Positions 20,962 through 27,263 of a stretch of 64,000 nt of DNA are shown in pieces. This DNA comes from Terriglobia bacterium. GTDB taxonomy: Bacteria; Acidobacteriota; Terriglobia; JAIQFV01. The first letter of the stretch is position 1. Each line of letters begins with the position of its first letter. Made by a program: the position numbers and the translations under genes. Under the pieces are notes generated by a model that worked only from the letters and a program-made list of their open reading frames with translations, was not told the DNA's origin and did no database searches. The stretch covers positions 186,001 to 250,000 of the forward strand of contig JAIQFY010000005.1 in assembly GCA_020072965.1 (NCBI GenBank). The letters run 5' to 3'.

Positions 20962-21873
20962 ATGCCTGTCCATAGACCTAAATCAAAATCTCGAAGCCAC
21001 GTGGAACGAGCCAATGCAGTCGAAGTCGGGGTGATCGGTGGGAGCGGTCTCTACGAGATGGCCGAACTGGCCGAGAAAAATGAAGTTGCGGTCTCGACCC
21101 CCTTCGGCAAGCCCTCAGACCCGCTCGTCATTGGCACCCTGCGAGGCCGGAGGGTGGCCTTTCTGGCCCGGCACGGACGGGGTCATCGGCTCATGCCGAC
21201 GGAAATTAATTATCGTGCAAACATCTATGCGATGAAGAAGCTGGGAGTGGAACGCATCATTTCGGCCAGCGCCGTGGGCTCTCTGAAGGAAGAGCACCAA
21301 CCCCTGGATATCCTGCTGCCGGATCAATTCTTCGACCGCACGCGTTACCGTGAAGGCGAGACTTTCTTCGGGAAGGGGCTGGTTGCGCATATCTCCTTCG
21401 CGGACCCGGTTTGTCCGCAGCTCTGCGACCTTCTCGAGACGTCTGCCCGCGTCGAATCGATTCCGATACACCGGGGCGGGACATACCTGTGCATGGAAGG
21501 CCCGGCGTTTTCGACGAAAGCGGAGTCTAATGTGTATCGGAGCCTGGGTATGGATGTCATTGGCATGACCAATCTGCAGGAAGCCAAACTCGCCCGTGAA
21601 GCCGAGATCTGCTACGCCACCTTGGCCTTGGTCACGGATTACGACTGCTGGCACCCCGAGCATGACGCCGTCACCGTGGCACAGATCATTGACAACCTGA
21701 ACCGCAACGCGGTCAATGCCCAGAAGGTAATCGCTGCGGCCGTTGCCGACATGCCGGCACAACGGATTTGCAAGTGTGGATCGGCCCTTTCCCACGCCCT
21801 GCTCACCGAACGGAGCAGAATTCTTCCGGCGACTCGGCGTAAACTGGATTTGTTGGTGAAAAAATACCTTTAG
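20962..21873 (+). CDS. mtnP: S-methyl-5'-thioadenosine phosphorylase
   Basis: This 303-residue PNP/MTAP-family enzyme splits methylthioadenosine with phosphate into adenine and 5-methylthioribose 1-phosphate (methionine salvage). Motifs: [12 protein letters not shown] (phosphate loop), [52 protein letters not shown] and [11 protein letters not shown], where the Asp in TDYD contacts the base. About 20 extra basic residues precede the domain ([13 protein letters not shown]). It opens a run of seven co-directional genes and sits 8 bases before the VWA gene. Confidence 0.93.
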
Positions 21874-21880
21874 ATCCACT

Positions 21881-22801
21881 ATGGAGCATCCCATTTTGCA
21901 GATGATTTATAGCCTTACACATCGGGGTGTGCGATTTGCCGTTTTAGCCGTGGCAATGATTTGCGCTCCCCCTGTCGTCCTGTCGCAAGGTGGGAACGAG
22001 GTTCATCTCCAGGTCACGGTCACCGATGAGACCGGGACCTTCGTCCGCGACCTCGCGGCCCCCAACTTTGTGGTTTCGGTTGATAAATCGAAGCTCGCTG
22101 TCCGGGAGGCCAAAGTCAGATCGGATGTGGCCCCGAGTGACATTTCCCTGCTGCTCGACACCAGTGTGATTGCGAGCCAGGTTGCCAATCCGCTGATTGA
22201 CATCACGCAGTCTTTCATCAAGGCCCTCGGAGCCAGCGATCAAATGGCGATCATCGCGTTTGATTCTTCCGCGAACCTGGTACAGGACTTTACCTCTTCC
22301 AAGAAACAGCTGACTGACGCCTTACGGGGGATGAAATATGGCAACGGGGCCGCCTTGCTCGATGCCATCTACGCGACAGCGGATGGCGGTTATGCCAACT
22401 CAACCGGCCGCCGCGTGATGGTTCTGCTCTCCACGGGAATTGACACCGGCTCCCGGGTCAGGCTCAAGGATGTGGCGCCCGTGCTCCAGCGGGAGAAGAT
22501 CACCCTCTTTGGGGTGTCGTTAGGGGGACGCGGGTTCTTCGCCGGAGGGACGAGCGAGATTTTTGAGAAATTGCCCGTCGCCACCGGCGGTCGGGCGTTC
22601 TACCCTCGGAAAGTTTCCGACATCGCGGGGATCGTGACCCAGATTCTGGGAAGCTCCTCGGGGCGCGCGTATTATGACCTTGTTGTGGAGTCGCTACCCG
22701 TCAGCCTCGACGAAGCCCAGAGGCGGGTACGGGTCCAAATTGATCGTGACCGCAAAGACGACAAGAATCTCATGGTCACAGCGAGGTTCGTGAAGGAGTA
22801 G
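21881..22801 (+). CDS. Secreted VWFA-related protein with degenerate MIDAS
   Basis: The 306-residue protein has a signal peptide (about 15-36, ending VVLSQ) and a von Willebrand A domain of the acidobacterial 'VWFA-related' type: a short beta leader (EVHLQVTVTDETGTFVRDL), ISLLLDTSVIAS, MAIIAFDSSANLVQDF, LLDAIYATADGG, RRVMVLLSTGIDTGSRV, and ITLFGVSLGGRG. The metal site is incomplete: DxSxS reads DTSVI (Asp93 and Ser95 kept, third ligand Ile97), and the later Thr is Ala. Metal-dependent ligand binding is therefore doubtful. Its role is unknown. Confidence 0.85.
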   Translation: MEHPILQMIYSLTHRGVRFAVLAVAMICAPPVVLSQGGNEVHLQVTVTDETGTFVRDLAAPNFVVSVDKSKLAVREAKVRSDVAPSDISLLLDTSVIASQVANPLIDITQSFIKALGASDQMAIIAFDSSANLVQDFTSSKKQLTDALRGMKYGNGAALLDAIYATADGGYANSTGRRVMVLLSTGIDTGSRVRLKDVAPVLQREKITLFGVSLGGRGFFAGGTSEIFEKLPVATGGRAFYPRKVSDIAGIVTQILGSSSGRAYYDLVVESLPVSLDEAQRRVRVQIDRDRKDDKNLMVTARFVKE

Positions 22802-22906
22802 CCCCGGGTTGATCGACAGAGCCGCCGGCCATCCCTTCCTTGCTCGGCAACGTCGGTTTACTTGAACAGCAACGTTCATTGATTCGAAAGGAACAACCAA
22901 TATTTC

Positions 22907-23830
22907 ATGGCGACCCTCGTTGTAGGTTCTGTGGCCTTTGACAATGTGAAAACCCCGTTCGGCACGGCGGAAAATGTGCTGGGTGGCTCGGCGACTTATT
23001 TCTCGGTGGCGGCCAGCTTCTTTTCGCCCGTGAATCTCGTTGCTGTCGTAGGAGAAGACTTCTCCAGACAGCATGAGAGGATTTTCAGGAAGCATGACGT
23101 GGATCTGCGGGGGCTTCAGCGGACACCCGGAAAGTCGTTTTTCTGGTGGGGAGAGTACAACGGCAACATGAACGAATGCCGCACCGTGGACACGCAATTG
23201 AATGTTTTCGCCGATTTTTCGCCCCGGATCCCCCGCGAATATCAATCCAGCGAATTTGTGTTCCTTGGCAATATCCATCCGCGCCTCCAACGTGAAGTCC
23301 TCAAGCAGGTGCGGCGTCCGCGGTTGATCGCGATGGACACGATGAATTACTGGATTAATAACACGCCCGGGGAGTTGCGCCAAACCCTGAAACTGGTGGA
23401 CATGCTGATTATCAACGACAACGAAACCCGGATGATTACGGGAGAACACAACCTGGTGAGAGGCGCGGAAAAAATCCTTACAATGGGGCCGAAAACACTT
23501 GTGGTGAAGCGGGGAGAATATGGTGTAGCGATGTTTCGGAAGGGATCCATCTTTGCAGCCCCCGCCTTTCCTTTGAAAAGGGTGTTTGATCCCACAGGCG
23601 CCGGGGACAGCTTTGCGGGAGGATTCGTGGGTTACCTCGCCTCCTGTCGCTCGTTGACCGAAGCGAGCATTCGTCGCGCGGTGGTATATGGTTCGGTAGT
23701 AGCCTCTTTCAAAGTTGAGGATTTTAGCCTGAGGCGATTGACGCGCCTGCGCCGGTCGGACATCGAGGGCCGCTTTAAGGCATTTCAAAAACTGATGCGC
23801 TTTGATTCTGCTCTCGGCAACGGGCGCTGA
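22907..23830 (+). CDS. PfkB-family sugar/nucleoside kinase
   Basis: The 307-residue ribokinase-fold enzyme has the N-terminal glycine motif NVLGGSATYFSVAASFF and the C-terminal signature DPTGAGDSFAGGF, whose Asp is the catalytic base. KTLVVKRGEYGVAMF is the strand before the lid. The substrate is not clear: ribokinase, adenosine kinase and phosphofructokinase-2 all share these motifs. Because it lies two genes after mtnP, a nucleoside or ribose-type substrate is a reasonable guess. The ribosome binding site is weak. Confidence 0.87.
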   Translation: MATLVVGSVAFDNVKTPFGTAENVLGGSATYFSVAASFFSPVNLVAVVGEDFSRQHERIFRKHDVDLRGLQRTPGKSFFWWGEYNGNMNECRTVDTQLNVFADFSPRIPREYQSSEFVFLGNIHPRLQREVLKQVRRPRLIAMDTMNYWINNTPGELRQTLKLVDMLIINDNETRMITGEHNLVRGAEKILTMGPKTLVVKRGEYGVAMFRKGSIFAAPAFPLKRVFDPTGAGDSFAGGFVGYLASCRSLTEASIRRAVVYGSVVASFKVEDFSLRRLTRLRRSDIEGRFKAFQKLMRFDSALGNGR

Positions 23831-23874
23831 ATGCGGTCGGTTTCCAGAGCGGAGGCAGGGGCGTCTCCGGGTTT

Positions 23875-25611
23875 ATGTCCCACGATCCCGAATCCGCACT
23901 TCGCAAAGAAAACGCACACCCGGTGAGGCCGCAGATGCTGTTCAGCAGAGAGTCAAACAGTGAGAATCCTGCCCTTTCCCTGGCGGGATCACGGCGTCAA
24001 TGTGCCCTGGCACTCCTGGTTCTCCTTGTCTTCAGTGTGGCGAGCTTCGCCTACGTCTATGCGCAGGGGTCGACCGATCTGGATGGAGACGGGTGGTCGC
24101 ACGTCAAGCGCGCACGGGTGCTTACTGATTCAGTGAATCCGGGATATCCCCAGATAGGCACCGTGTGGCTGCCCCTGTTTCACCTGCTGGCGGCTCCCCT
24201 GGCGATGAATAATTTTCTGTGGCGAACGGGGGTGGCGGGTAGTGTGGTGTCGATGGCCAGCTTTATGGGAGCGGGATTTGGGCTCTTCCTGATCTTACGG
24301 CTGACCCTCGATGAACGTGCCGTCGCCTGGTTGGGGTTGAGCGTAGTCGTCCTCAACCCCAGCTGGCTGTACTACCAGACCACGCCGATGCAAGAACCTC
24401 TCTCCATGGCGCTCCTCGTACTCAATGTATTATTTCTGGTGTTATGGCAGCAGCGGGGAAGTGGATGGTACCTATTGCTCGCCGCAGTCATGAATCTTCT
24501 AGCGGCGCTGAATCGATACGAAGCCTGGTTCTTTATCCCCTGGAGTACCCTCTGGATTCTTGGCGCCTCCACGTGGAGACGGGAGGGCCGGTCGTGGAGA
24601 TCCCGTTGTGGCGACGCCCTGGTCTACGGGTCTGTCGCCTCGCTGGCGCCGATCTACTGGTTTGCGCATAACTGGTTTGAGTATGGAGACGTGTGGGAGT
24701 TCATCCGCGGTCCATACTCGGCCAGGGCGCTTTACTGGAAGCAGATCGCCACGTACCACTTCCGCTATCCGACCGAAGGGCACTGGTGGCTCTCTCTCCT
24801 CTACTATACAAAGTCGGTCCGCCATTGCGCGGGGGAAGTCCCCTTCTGGCTTGCAACGATCGGGCTGCTGGTGGTGCTCATGCGGGCGATATCGAAGGGC
24901 CTATCCGGAACGCCCCGACAGAGGGAGCGAGGGTGGTCTTGGCACTCCGCCCATTTGCTGTTTCTGGTGCCATTTGTCTTTTATGTCCTCTCCCTGGTGA
25001 AGGGACGTGCACCCACGTATGTTGCCGAATACTATCCCTACACGAACTTCGGTGTCCGGTACGGTCATACTCCGATCCCAGCGGTTGTTACGCTGGTCGG
25101 TGTGCTTTTTGCGTTCGTCGCCGGTTGGGTTCACACCCGCTGGTTGCGGCGATCGCTCGTGGCTTTGTTTCTCGGCGTGTTGCTCGTCCCCCTTGGAATT
25201 GCCGTCAAAACCCATCTCCATTCACTGCCGGCGCACGAAGAGCCTTACTTTAACAATGATGACGATCGGCGCATTCTTCGCGTTTTGGCCGATTACTTGA
25301 AACCCCGCTGGCACGGAGAAATGATCCTGATGAACTCGGGATATCTGGGACGGATTGCACAACTCGACGAAATCCCCTTTCGAAAAATCATTTTCGAAGA
25401 TAATCTGGACGCGTGGCAATTTGCGTTGCGATACCCTTTTCCTCGCATCCAATGGGTATTGGCCGAAGAAGGCGATGATGTTTGGAAGATGGTTACCACA
25501 GTCCCGGCCTACCGGCGTTACTATCGTGAAGAGAAAACAGTGCGGGGAATCCGGGCCCATGTGATCCACGTGTACGCGCACCATGCACCGGTCGGAGGGC
25601 CCCCCGAGTAG
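23875..25611 (+). CDS. GT-C-like polytopic membrane protein (putative glycosyltransferase)
   Basis: The 578-residue protein has about ten hydrophobic segments from residue 42 on. The first periplasmic loop has TDLDGDGWSHVKRARV, where an acidic motif after the first membrane helix is the usual position of the catalytic acid in GT-C enzymes (GT39/GT83 and relatives). Further on are QIGTVWLPLFHLLAAPL and QTTPMQEPLSMALLVLN, also typical of the group. The C-terminal ~110 residues are soluble. A polyprenyl-phosphate-sugar-dependent transferase is inferred; donor and acceptor are unknown. Confidence 0.7.
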   Translation: MSHDPESALRKENAHPVRPQMLFSRESNSENPALSLAGSRRQCALALLVLLVFSVASFAYVYAQGSTDLDGDGWSHVKRARVLTDSVNPGYPQIGTVWLPLFHLLAAPLAMNNFLWRTGVAGSVVSMASFMGAGFGLFLILRLTLDERAVAWLGLSVVVLNPSWLYYQTTPMQEPLSMALLVLNVLFLVLWQQRGSGWYLLLAAVMNLLAALNRYEAWFFIPWSTLWILGASTWRREGRSWRSRCGDALVYGSVASLAPIYWFAHNWFEYGDVWEFIRGPYSARALYWKQIATYHFRYPTEGHWWLSLLYYTKSVRHCAGEVPFWLATIGLLVVLMRAISKGLSGTPRQRERGWSWHSAHLLFLVPFVFYVLSLVKGRAPTYVAEYYPYTNFGVRYGHTPIPAVVTLVGVLFAFVAGWVHTRWLRRSLVALFLGVLLVPLGIAVKTHLHSLPAHEEPYFNNDDDRRILRVLADYLKPRWHGEMILMNSGYLGRIAQLDEIPFRKIIFEDNLDAWQFALRYPFPRIQWVLAEEGDDVWKMVTTVPAYRRYYREEKTVRGIRAHVIHVYAHHAPVGGPPE

Positions 25612-25626
25612 GAAAGGAGACAATTT

Positions 25627-26286
25627 ATGAACATCGCAACCGAGACGATCCTTAAGATGGCTGCTTCGGCGGCGCTGGGGGGGTTGGTCGGGCTGGAGCG
25701 CGAATTGCATCACAAGCCCGCGGGCCTGCGGACCAATATGTTTATATGTCTCGGTTCCACGATGTTTACGATGCTCTCGCTCGAGGTGGCCGAGAAATTC
25801 CACAGCGACCCCGAACGCATCGCGGCCCAGATTATTCCCGGAATCGGGTTCATCGGGGCCGGGGCTATTTTGAGGGAGGGATTAAGCGTGGTGGGCCTGA
25901 CGACCGCTGCCACTATGTTTGTGGTGGCGGCCATCGGGATGGGCATCGGCTATGGCTATTTTGGCTCCTCGAGTATCGCTACAGGCATGATTCTGGCGGC
26001 CCTCCTCCTCCTCCGCTATGTCGAGCGGAAACTCGGGACAAAGTTTGTGCATTACCAGTTTTCAATGTCCACGGATAAGATGGCGGAGGCATCGACGAAA
26101 GTAAAAGCGTTGCTTGATGAACTGAAAATCCAGACTGAGGAAGTGAGCTGGTCCCGCGAAGGTGAAGGCCATTTCCTTCGCGTCAGTGCGTCCCTGTCCC
26201 CCGCACTCCATACGGAATTGATGCGCCGCCTCTTGCAGGTCGGGGAGCTGAATGATATTAAGTCGTCCATCTTCAGCGAAAAGTGA
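25627..26286 (+). CDS. MgtC/SapB family membrane protein
   Basis: The 219-residue inner-membrane protein shows the MgtC pattern: GGLVGLERELHHKPAGLRTNMFICLGSTMFT, IIPGIGFIGAGAILREG and VVGLTTAATMFVVAAIGMGIGYG, in about five membrane segments. The C-terminal ~80 residues form an ACT-like cytoplasmic domain (VKALLDELKIQTEEVSW). MgtC proteins help cells live at low Mg2+ and modulate the F-type ATPase in some pathogens; the role here is not evident. AAAGGAG lies 8 bases before the ATG. Confidence 0.92.
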   Translation: MNIATETILKMAASAALGGLVGLERELHHKPAGLRTNMFICLGSTMFTMLSLEVAEKFHSDPERIAAQIIPGIGFIGAGAILREGLSVVGLTTAATMFVVAAIGMGIGYGYFGSSSIATGMILAALLLLRYVERKLGTKFVHYQFSMSTDKMAEASTKVKALLDELKIQTEEVSWSREGEGHFLRVSASLSPALHTELMRRLLQVGELNDIKSSIFSEK

Positions 26287-26306
26287 AATGAGGTTGACAA
26301 CTCGGG

Positions 26307-27203
26307 ATGATCCCTTTCTACAAAGCGCATGGGCTTGGGAATGATTTCCTGATCGTCGACCGGGATGCCTTGCCGGACCGCGGGGAGGAATCTTTGACCC
26401 TGCTGGCACAGAAGATGTGCGATCGACACCGCGGCATCGGGGCGGATGGGGTGGTCTTCATTTTCCCGGGTATGGACTACCCCCAATATGATTTCTCTAT
26501 CCGTCTGTTCAACAGTGACGGCAGTGAAGCGGAGATGAGCGGCAACGGCATACGGTGCGCCGCGGCTGTCCATCATTGGAAGAGTCCGGAGGCCGCAAGA
26601 GAGGTTGTGCTGGGATCGGTCGTCGGCCGTCGCGTTCTGCGTCTGATCAAGCGTAATGGAGCAAGATTTACTTACGTGGCCGAAATGGGGGTCCCTGGCT
26701 TCAACCCTCAAGAAATTCCATTTTCGGCTGAGGGTCTGGAGATGAATGTTCGCCGGCCTGGGTCTTCCATGGTCCTCAGCGTTCCATTGACCGTGGAAGA
26801 TCGAACCTTTGAGATTACGGCAATGTCGATCGGGAATCCCCAGTGTATTACGTTGGTGGAGGAGTTTGAATCCTTCGATTGGAAACGGTATGGCCGTGCC
26901 CTTGAATCCCATTTGAGGTTTCCCAGGAAGACCAACGTGGAGTTTGTGCACGTCATTGATGAACATACGGTCGAGATCAGGATTTGGGAACGGGGGGCAG
27001 GACATACCGAATCCTCCGGCACCGGTTCGATTGCTTCGGCGCTCGGGGCTCTCCTCAACGGCCGTGTAACCAGCCCCGTGCGAGTTCTCACTGAGGGCGG
27101 CGTGCTCCAGGTCGAATGGAAGGGGGAAGGTGAGCCCGTCTTCCTGACAGGAGACGCAGAGGTGGTTTGTCAGGGAATATTTCTGGGGGCGAAGGGGATA
27201 TAA
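26307..27203 (+). CDS. dapF: Diaminopimelate epimerase homologue lacking both catalytic cysteines
   Basis: The 298-residue protein has the two-domain DapF fold: FYKAHGLGNDFLIVDRD at the start, DRHRGIGADGVVFI, RLFNSDGSEAEMSGNGIRCAAAV, MSIGNPQCITLVEEF, NVEFVHV and IWERGAGHTESSGTGSIASALG. DapF converts LL- to meso-diaminopimelate for lysine and peptidoglycan, using two cysteines as acid and base. Here the first (the C of CGNG) is Ser78 and the second (the C of CGSG) is Ser237. Everything around them is conserved. Either it works as a Ser/Ser enzyme, acts on another substrate, or is inactive. Confidence 0.85.
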   Translation: MIPFYKAHGLGNDFLIVDRDALPDRGEESLTLLAQKMCDRHRGIGADGVVFIFPGMDYPQYDFSIRLFNSDGSEAEMSGNGIRCAAAVHHWKSPEAAREVVLGSVVGRRVLRLIKRNGARFTYVAEMGVPGFNPQEIPFSAEGLEMNVRRPGSSMVLSVPLTVEDRTFEITAMSIGNPQCITLVEEFESFDWKRYGRALESHLRFPRKTNVEFVHVIDEHTVEIRIWERGAGHTESSGTGSIASALGALLNGRVTSPVRVLTEGGVLQVEWKGEGEPVFLTGDAEVVCQGIFLGAKGI

Positions 27204-27263
27204 CATCGGAGACAACCCGAGGCTCCATTAGCGCCGGGATTCAAAGGAGATTGGAAGGGAGTT

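Follow-up and report, generated by a model that had tools for sequence, protein, structure and literature searches.

A diaminopimelate (DAP) epimerase homologue encoded within the window, by which we mean the whole 64,000-nucleotide stretch analysed from a Terriglobia bacterium, carries serine at both of the positions that are occupied by the catalytic cysteines in DapF. We consider it likely that this protein is the working DAP epimerase of the cell and a member of an old lineage that exchanged its two catalytic cysteines for serines, which then became fixed. It is probably a functional enzyme with unusual chemistry rather than the product of a broken gene. The fold, the family and the probable reaction are known; what is new is the natural Ser/Ser pair, for which no report was found among the papers searched. 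The gene and its active-site features are the following:

26307..27203, + strand: dapF-like gene encoding a Ser/Ser DAP epimerase homologue, an open frame of 298 aa with an ATG start codon
26511..26555, + strand: first active-site motif, N69-SDGSEAEM-S78-GNGI-R83, from the alignment; agrees with the PROSITE DapF signature except for Ser in place of Cys
26538..26540, + strand: Ser78, codon AGC, at the first catalytic Cys position (H. influenzae Cys73)
26841..26843, + strand: Gln179, codon CAG, at the position of the DapF catalytic His (H. influenzae His159)
26988..27026, + strand: second active-site motif, E228-RGAGHTES-S237-GTG, in which E228, R229 and S237 are invariant
27015..27017, + strand: Ser237, codon TCC, at the second catalytic Cys position (H. 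influenzae Cys217)

In the alignment, the cysteines of the CGNG and ACGTG motifs of solved DapFs correspond to Ser78 and Ser237 of the window protein. An earlier sequence-only reading of this DNA had placed an AGC and a TCC serine codon at the two catalytic positions, and the codons, the alignment and a survey of relatives confirmed this assignment. The same reading held, from the full conservation of the flanking motifs, that the change was not random decay, and this stood. The rest of the active site is nevertheless not entirely canonical: the histidine that follows GNP in DapF is replaced by Gln179, as it likewise is in 36 of 144 Ser/Ser proteins. This histidine has been described as essential for catalysis (PMC5885031), and three of the four residues usually named catalytic (Cys, Cys, His and Glu; PMC5885031) are changed in the window protein. 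A 387-aa open frame, probably a shadow of the GC-rich coding sequence, runs antisense to the gene (26052-27215, - strand).

The window protein scored 222.5 bits against the equivalog model TIGR00652, above its curated cut-off of 114.65, and the only Pfam family found over cut-off was PF01678 (DAP_epimerase), the same scan giving no assignment to the proline racemase family (4HypE, t3HypD type). The model for bifunctional DapF/glutamate racemases, NF038284, gave 64.4 bits, below its cut-off of 350. The PROSITE DapF signature, quoted as N-x-[DN]-[GS]-[SENGFT]-x(4)-C-[GI]-N-[GA]-x-R (PMC8225329), is missed by the corresponding segment (NSDGSEAEMSGNGIR) at a single residue, the S found where C is required. 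The thiolate/thiol pair of catalytic cysteines that defines DapF is thereby absent, Ser78 and Ser237 standing in its place. The DAP-binding residues are retained: N12, N69, N177, N210, E228 and R229, invariant in 144 sequences, are the equivalents of N11, N64, N157, N190, E208 and R209 in H. influenzae numbering, which we take from established DapF structures to be the residues that bind DAP. An AlphaFold model built from 82 of the sequences (mean pLDDT 94) predicts the DapF fold, namely two alpha/beta domains and two central helices, each with a catalytic residue at its N-terminus; in this model Ser78 directly precedes helix 79-92 and Ser237 helix 238-250, which are the cysteine sites in DapF. 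Its best PDB match was the cyanobacterial DAP epimerase 9mro (Z 37.6, rmsd 2.3 over 277), and the Arabidopsis DAP epimerase 3ejx matched at Z 37.1. We therefore describe the window protein as one that works like DapF but that, lacking the two cysteines and the PROSITE signature, is not a fully qualified member of the family.

The genome that contains the window (5.9 Mb in 108 contigs, scored 100% complete) holds one DapF only in both TIGR00652 and PF01678 searches, which bears out what the sequence-only reading had entertained as a condition. An additional weak PF01678 match (C68/L174) was discarded as a second DapF, being by sequence proline racemase/hydroxyproline epimerase-like and adjoining an FAD oxidoreductase. 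The host possesses a DAP pathway in need of an epimerase: dapA, dapD and asd are consecutive on contig C89, with dapD passing NF008808; murE (C70:299347-300738) encodes the DAP-type motif TSDNPR; and lysA, on contig C15, scored 480 bits, meso-DAP being the substrate of LysA (PMC4176475). Across 101 genomes of the class, no match to DAP dehydrogenase (Ddh) was over cut-off, and the 22.9-bit candidate in the window genome is a Gfo/Idh/MocA oxidoreductase beside lpxI/lpxA-like genes. DapL was below cut-off in the window genome with all DapL models; a TIGR03540 match of 400 bits was rejected because it is itself sub-cut-off and the protein scores equally high as an alanine transaminase. Thus, the checks proposed earlier for a second dapF, for ddh and for the LL-DAP aminotransferase route returned nothing over cut-off. 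Since DapA-DapD-Asd, MurE and LysA are present and neither Ddh nor DapL is seen over cut-off, the Ser/Ser protein appears to be the sole visible LL-to-meso-DAP epimerase of this genome, unless something unrecognised acts; of the pathway, the search covered dapA, dapD, asd, murE, lysA, ddh and dapL.

The window dapF does not adjoin the dap genes. An MgtC-like gene lies immediately upstream of it, and mtnP-like, PfkB-like kinase and membrane glycosyltransferase-like genes precede it at 20962-26286, in an order that recurs in relatives. These recurrent neighbours (mtnP, PfkB kinase, membrane protein) were considered as a clue to the substrate, and they name none.

In the final alignment, S78 and S237 are serine in all 144 main-clade sequences, together with invariant K6, N12, N69, G79, N80, N177, N210, E228 and R229, while Ser236, which adjoins Ser237, is variable (Ser in 109, Ala in 33). 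Each of the two sites draws on both serine codon boxes (TCN 136 and AGC 13 for Ser78; TCN 146 and AGC 3 for Ser237), and the comparison of the window dapF with that of the congeneric genome G001 gave a dN/dS of approximately 0.125. Invariance of both serines under such a dN/dS is the pattern of needed residues and not of decay. A sequencing or assembly error, or the decay of a paralogue, has next to no chance of explaining the serines: the survey of relatives refuted it, as the same state recurs in 144 independent main-clade sequences and in two codon boxes, under purifying selection and with no Cys/Cys copy in the genome. The outcome that had been named in advance as refuting the earlier claim, a Cys/Cys dapF elsewhere combined with relaxed selection, came out negative on both counts. 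We also regard it as very improbable that the protein is a catalytically dead homologue with a regulatory or binding role, meso-DAP coming from elsewhere. Non-catalytic roles do exist, since E. coli DapF complexes with RppH (PDB 6d13), and Cys-to-Ser mutants are nearly dead; however, drift would then be expected at positions 78 and 237, where 144 sequences display none, the remaining key substrate-binding residues are invariant, and no other epimerase or Ddh was found in the genome.

Only a few columns separate the main clade from the Cys/Cys proteins, for which the comparison set was small (14 sequences): 78, 237, 87 and 180. Residue 87 is Ala in 131 of the 144 main-clade proteins and mostly K/R/H in the Cys/Cys proteins compared, and C180 is present in 123/144 versus 2/14. 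Judging from the alignment, these four columns may be the places to look for compensating change. An unlikely alternative is that the protein is a DAP epimerase whose serines only position the substrate, the protons being carried by another group (Glu228, Gln/His179, a bound water, or a nearby cysteine such as C84 or C180). By its pKa serine is a poorer base than cysteine, E228 is invariant, and C84 (140/144) and C180 are both frequent in the main clade. Nevertheless, C84 is equally common in Cys/Cys DapFs, C84 and C180 are both missing from four main-clade sequences, and residue 179 alternates among H, Q and N. No cysteine column is invariant among the 144 main-clade sequences, and on this ground a rescuing cysteine elsewhere in the protein was rejected. 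Moreover, a mere positioning role hardly explains the absolute conservation of serine at exactly the two catalytic positions.

The Ser/Ser state extends well beyond the window genome. A first survey within the class found it in 88 of 88 DapF sequences readable at both sites, and across the phylum it occurs in most sampled families, others having Cys/Cys; the swap is thus the norm for its class and for a large part of the phylum. Gene content, along with weak best plasmid matches to Granulicella, indicates that this phylum is probably Acidobacteriota. In a DapF tree computed without the two catalytic columns, the main Ser/Ser set forms one clade (bootstrap/SH-aLRT support 100/97) that spans dozens of families of the phylum, which answers in the affirmative the earlier proposal to check whether such proteins group together. 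A second, small Ser/Ser clade sits elsewhere in the tree with support 100/95, and Ser/Ser label changes numbered two in all bootstrap trees. It is therefore likely that Ser/Ser arose twice, although a single origin is all that the starred branches by themselves require. Pairwise identity among all Ser/Ser sequences has a median of 41% and a minimum of 26%. Taken together, the single copy, the purifying selection and the Ser/Ser clade upheld the view of a paired, fixed variant.

The second-clade proteins, of the SGNGLRIF, ASGSSS type, are found elsewhere in the phylum at loci L128 (genome G496), L119 (G487) and L144 (G323). G496 has two DapF-family matches; in its family (f33), the relatives that were typed have a divergent DapF of the Cys/Cys kind. 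A contig scan with the window protein alone returned one Cys/Cys relative, in a record marked as contamination. Outside the phylum, a plasmid protein of Streptomyces sp. NBC_01216 that bears the annotation DapF (WP_327378980.1, L192:101-1045) is also Ser/Ser; its gene is flanked by 2OG-Fe dioxygenase and molybdopterin oxidoreductase genes, and it is possibly a racemase of a natural-product pathway. A mixed state, in which the first catalytic position is Cys and the second Ser, was observed in DapF homologues encoded on replicons of Rhizobium, Sphingomonas and Burkholderia (L198, L200 and L205) and in one homologue from the same phylum as the window genome (L146, G156).

Genomes of the phylum usually have a single dapF, either Ser/Ser or Cys/Cys, and two families (f37 and f38) include both types in different genomes; in f38 the Cys/Cys dapF adjoins lysA. 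At least one genome of another family (G499, f59) has two DapF matches, of which the copy on contig C7 is Cys/Cys. This mutual replacement in a single dapF slot suggests that the two types do the same job. A second indication comes from G026, a genome of the same class that carries a second-clade homologue scoring 73.6 bits, below the DapF cut-off. Here (L067:909-8804) the Ser/Ser dapF lies directly between murE and dapL, with dapA, dapB, lysA and an ArgE/DapE-like gene in the same cluster, and G026 has DapL (614 bits) instead of the DapD present in its relatives. Genomic context thus names the function of this second-clade homologue within the DAP pathway.

These observations weigh against the possibility, in our estimate quite unlikely, that the window protein epimerises, racemises or isomerises some other amino acid, meso-DAP being made by some unrecognised route. 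Enzymes with the DapF fold do switch substrate, as the histidine, O-ureidoserine and Dab racemases illustrate, the Streptomyces plasmid homologue lies amid secondary-metabolism-like genes, and another route to meso-DAP may exist in the class, given that most genomes of family f6 have LysA and MurE without dapF. On the other hand, N69, N177, N210 and R229 do not vary, the acyl-DAP route is otherwise in place and no alternative to it was seen, Cys/Cys dapF substitutes in related genomes, and the G026 operon puts a Ser/Ser relative in the DAP pathway. The sequence-only reading had proposed altered chemistry or an altered substrate. The latter found no support, since the key DAP-contact residues are invariant, the DAP/lysine route is otherwise in place while Ddh and DapL are not, and related genomes have Cys/Cys dapF instead of Ser/Ser; altered chemistry is a reasonable proposal. 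A search of the literature on the DAP isomer in acidobacterial walls yielded nothing usable.

Family f6, of the same class, includes at least 16 genomes without DapF by two models (e.g. L182-L187, L227 and L228), which retain LysA and, where checked, MurE with the DNPR motif. All of them encode a 337-aa protein related to 2,4-diaminopentanoate dehydrogenase, with NF040740 scores under the cut-off; it is strong in only eight genomes outside f6 and represents a possible substitute route to meso-DAP. Five genomes of family f8, genus g9 (G009, G017, G031, G038 and G045), have DapF but only weak LysA matches (approximately 100 bits), and may be auxotrophic for lysine or rely on a different decarboxylase.

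Returning to the preferred reading of a working Ser/Ser DAP epimerase, the conserved residues would bind LL-DAP in the usual closed cleft, where one serine hydroxyl, acidified by the helix dipole and neighbouring groups, would take the alpha proton and the other would return a proton from the opposite face; the resulting meso-DAP would feed MurE and LysA. By a narrower balance of judgement, we favour the proposal that both thiols gave way to serine hydroxyls in one lineage of phylum scale and in a second that is smaller, and that these enzymes still epimerise LL-DAP; this would be the first amino acid epimerase to work without a cofactor through a Ser/Ser acid-base pair. Such a pair is unexpected because engineered Cys-to-Ser mutants retain so little activity: single mutants of PddB keep <0.1%, in line with reports on DapF of M. 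tuberculosis and on other enzymes (PMC8225329), and those of HisR are greatly slowed (PMC11602996). Cysteine is favoured in cofactor-independent racemases for its easier desolvation and lower pKa (PMC8142540). Catalytic serine has a precedent in the proline racemase superfamily, in which a 4-hydroxyproline epimerase has a Ser/Cys pair and a dehydratase has Ser/Thr (PMC4113996). The points against a Ser/Ser epimerase are the mutant data, the pKa of serine, Gln179 in place of the histidine described as essential, the location of dapF apart from the dap genes, and the division of the genome into 108 contigs.

Cofactor-independent racemases are seen as thiolate/thiol enzymes, since the removal of a proton of pKa ~29 seems to be within reach of a desolvated thiolate alone (PMC8142540). 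If a natural Ser/Ser DapF, ancient in origin and apparently needed, is indeed at work, either hydroxyl pairs suffice or another residue does the work, and the wild-type and Cys-restored enzymes offer a simple pair with which the thiol question becomes testable. Ser/Ser DapFs are predicted to be insensitive to thiol reagents and to cysteine-alkylating DapF inhibitors, and automatic annotation as plain DapF would hide a mechanistic split in an enzyme required for cell-wall building blocks and lysine.

Among known systems, the closest is canonical Cys/Cys DapF (EC 5.1.1.7; 9mro, Arabidopsis 3ejx, H. influenzae 1gqz), with which the window protein shares the fold (Z 33-38, 33-40% identity), length, two-domain symmetry, single gene copy, pathway company and the equivalents of N11/N64/N75/N157/N190/E208/R209. 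It differs in having Ser for both catalytic cysteines and Gln179 for His159, and the Ser/Ser proteins further differ from the Cys/Cys proteins in the predominance of Ala at position 87. The H. influenzae DapF mutants C73S (2q9h) and C217S (2q9j) have the same substitutions at the same places, singly, and a nearly identical fold (Z ~33); they are laboratory mutants meant to hinder catalysis (PMC12039745), whereas the serines described here are natural, paired and ancient. Natural catalytic serine also occurs in the Ser/Cys 4-hydroxyproline epimerase B9JQV3 and the Ser/Thr trans-3-hydroxyproline dehydratase B9K4G4 (PMC4113996), members of a superfamily that distantly shares the fold (Z ~25); these belong to another family with other substrates and combine one Ser with Cys or Thr, no Ser/Ser epimerase being reported there. 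Finally, the Dab racemase PddB, the histidine racemases HisR/CntK and the O-ureidoserine racemase DcsC have a DapF-like fold in common with the window protein but act on other substrates in other gene company, and PddB and HisR rely on catalytic cysteines whose replacement by serine nearly kills activity.
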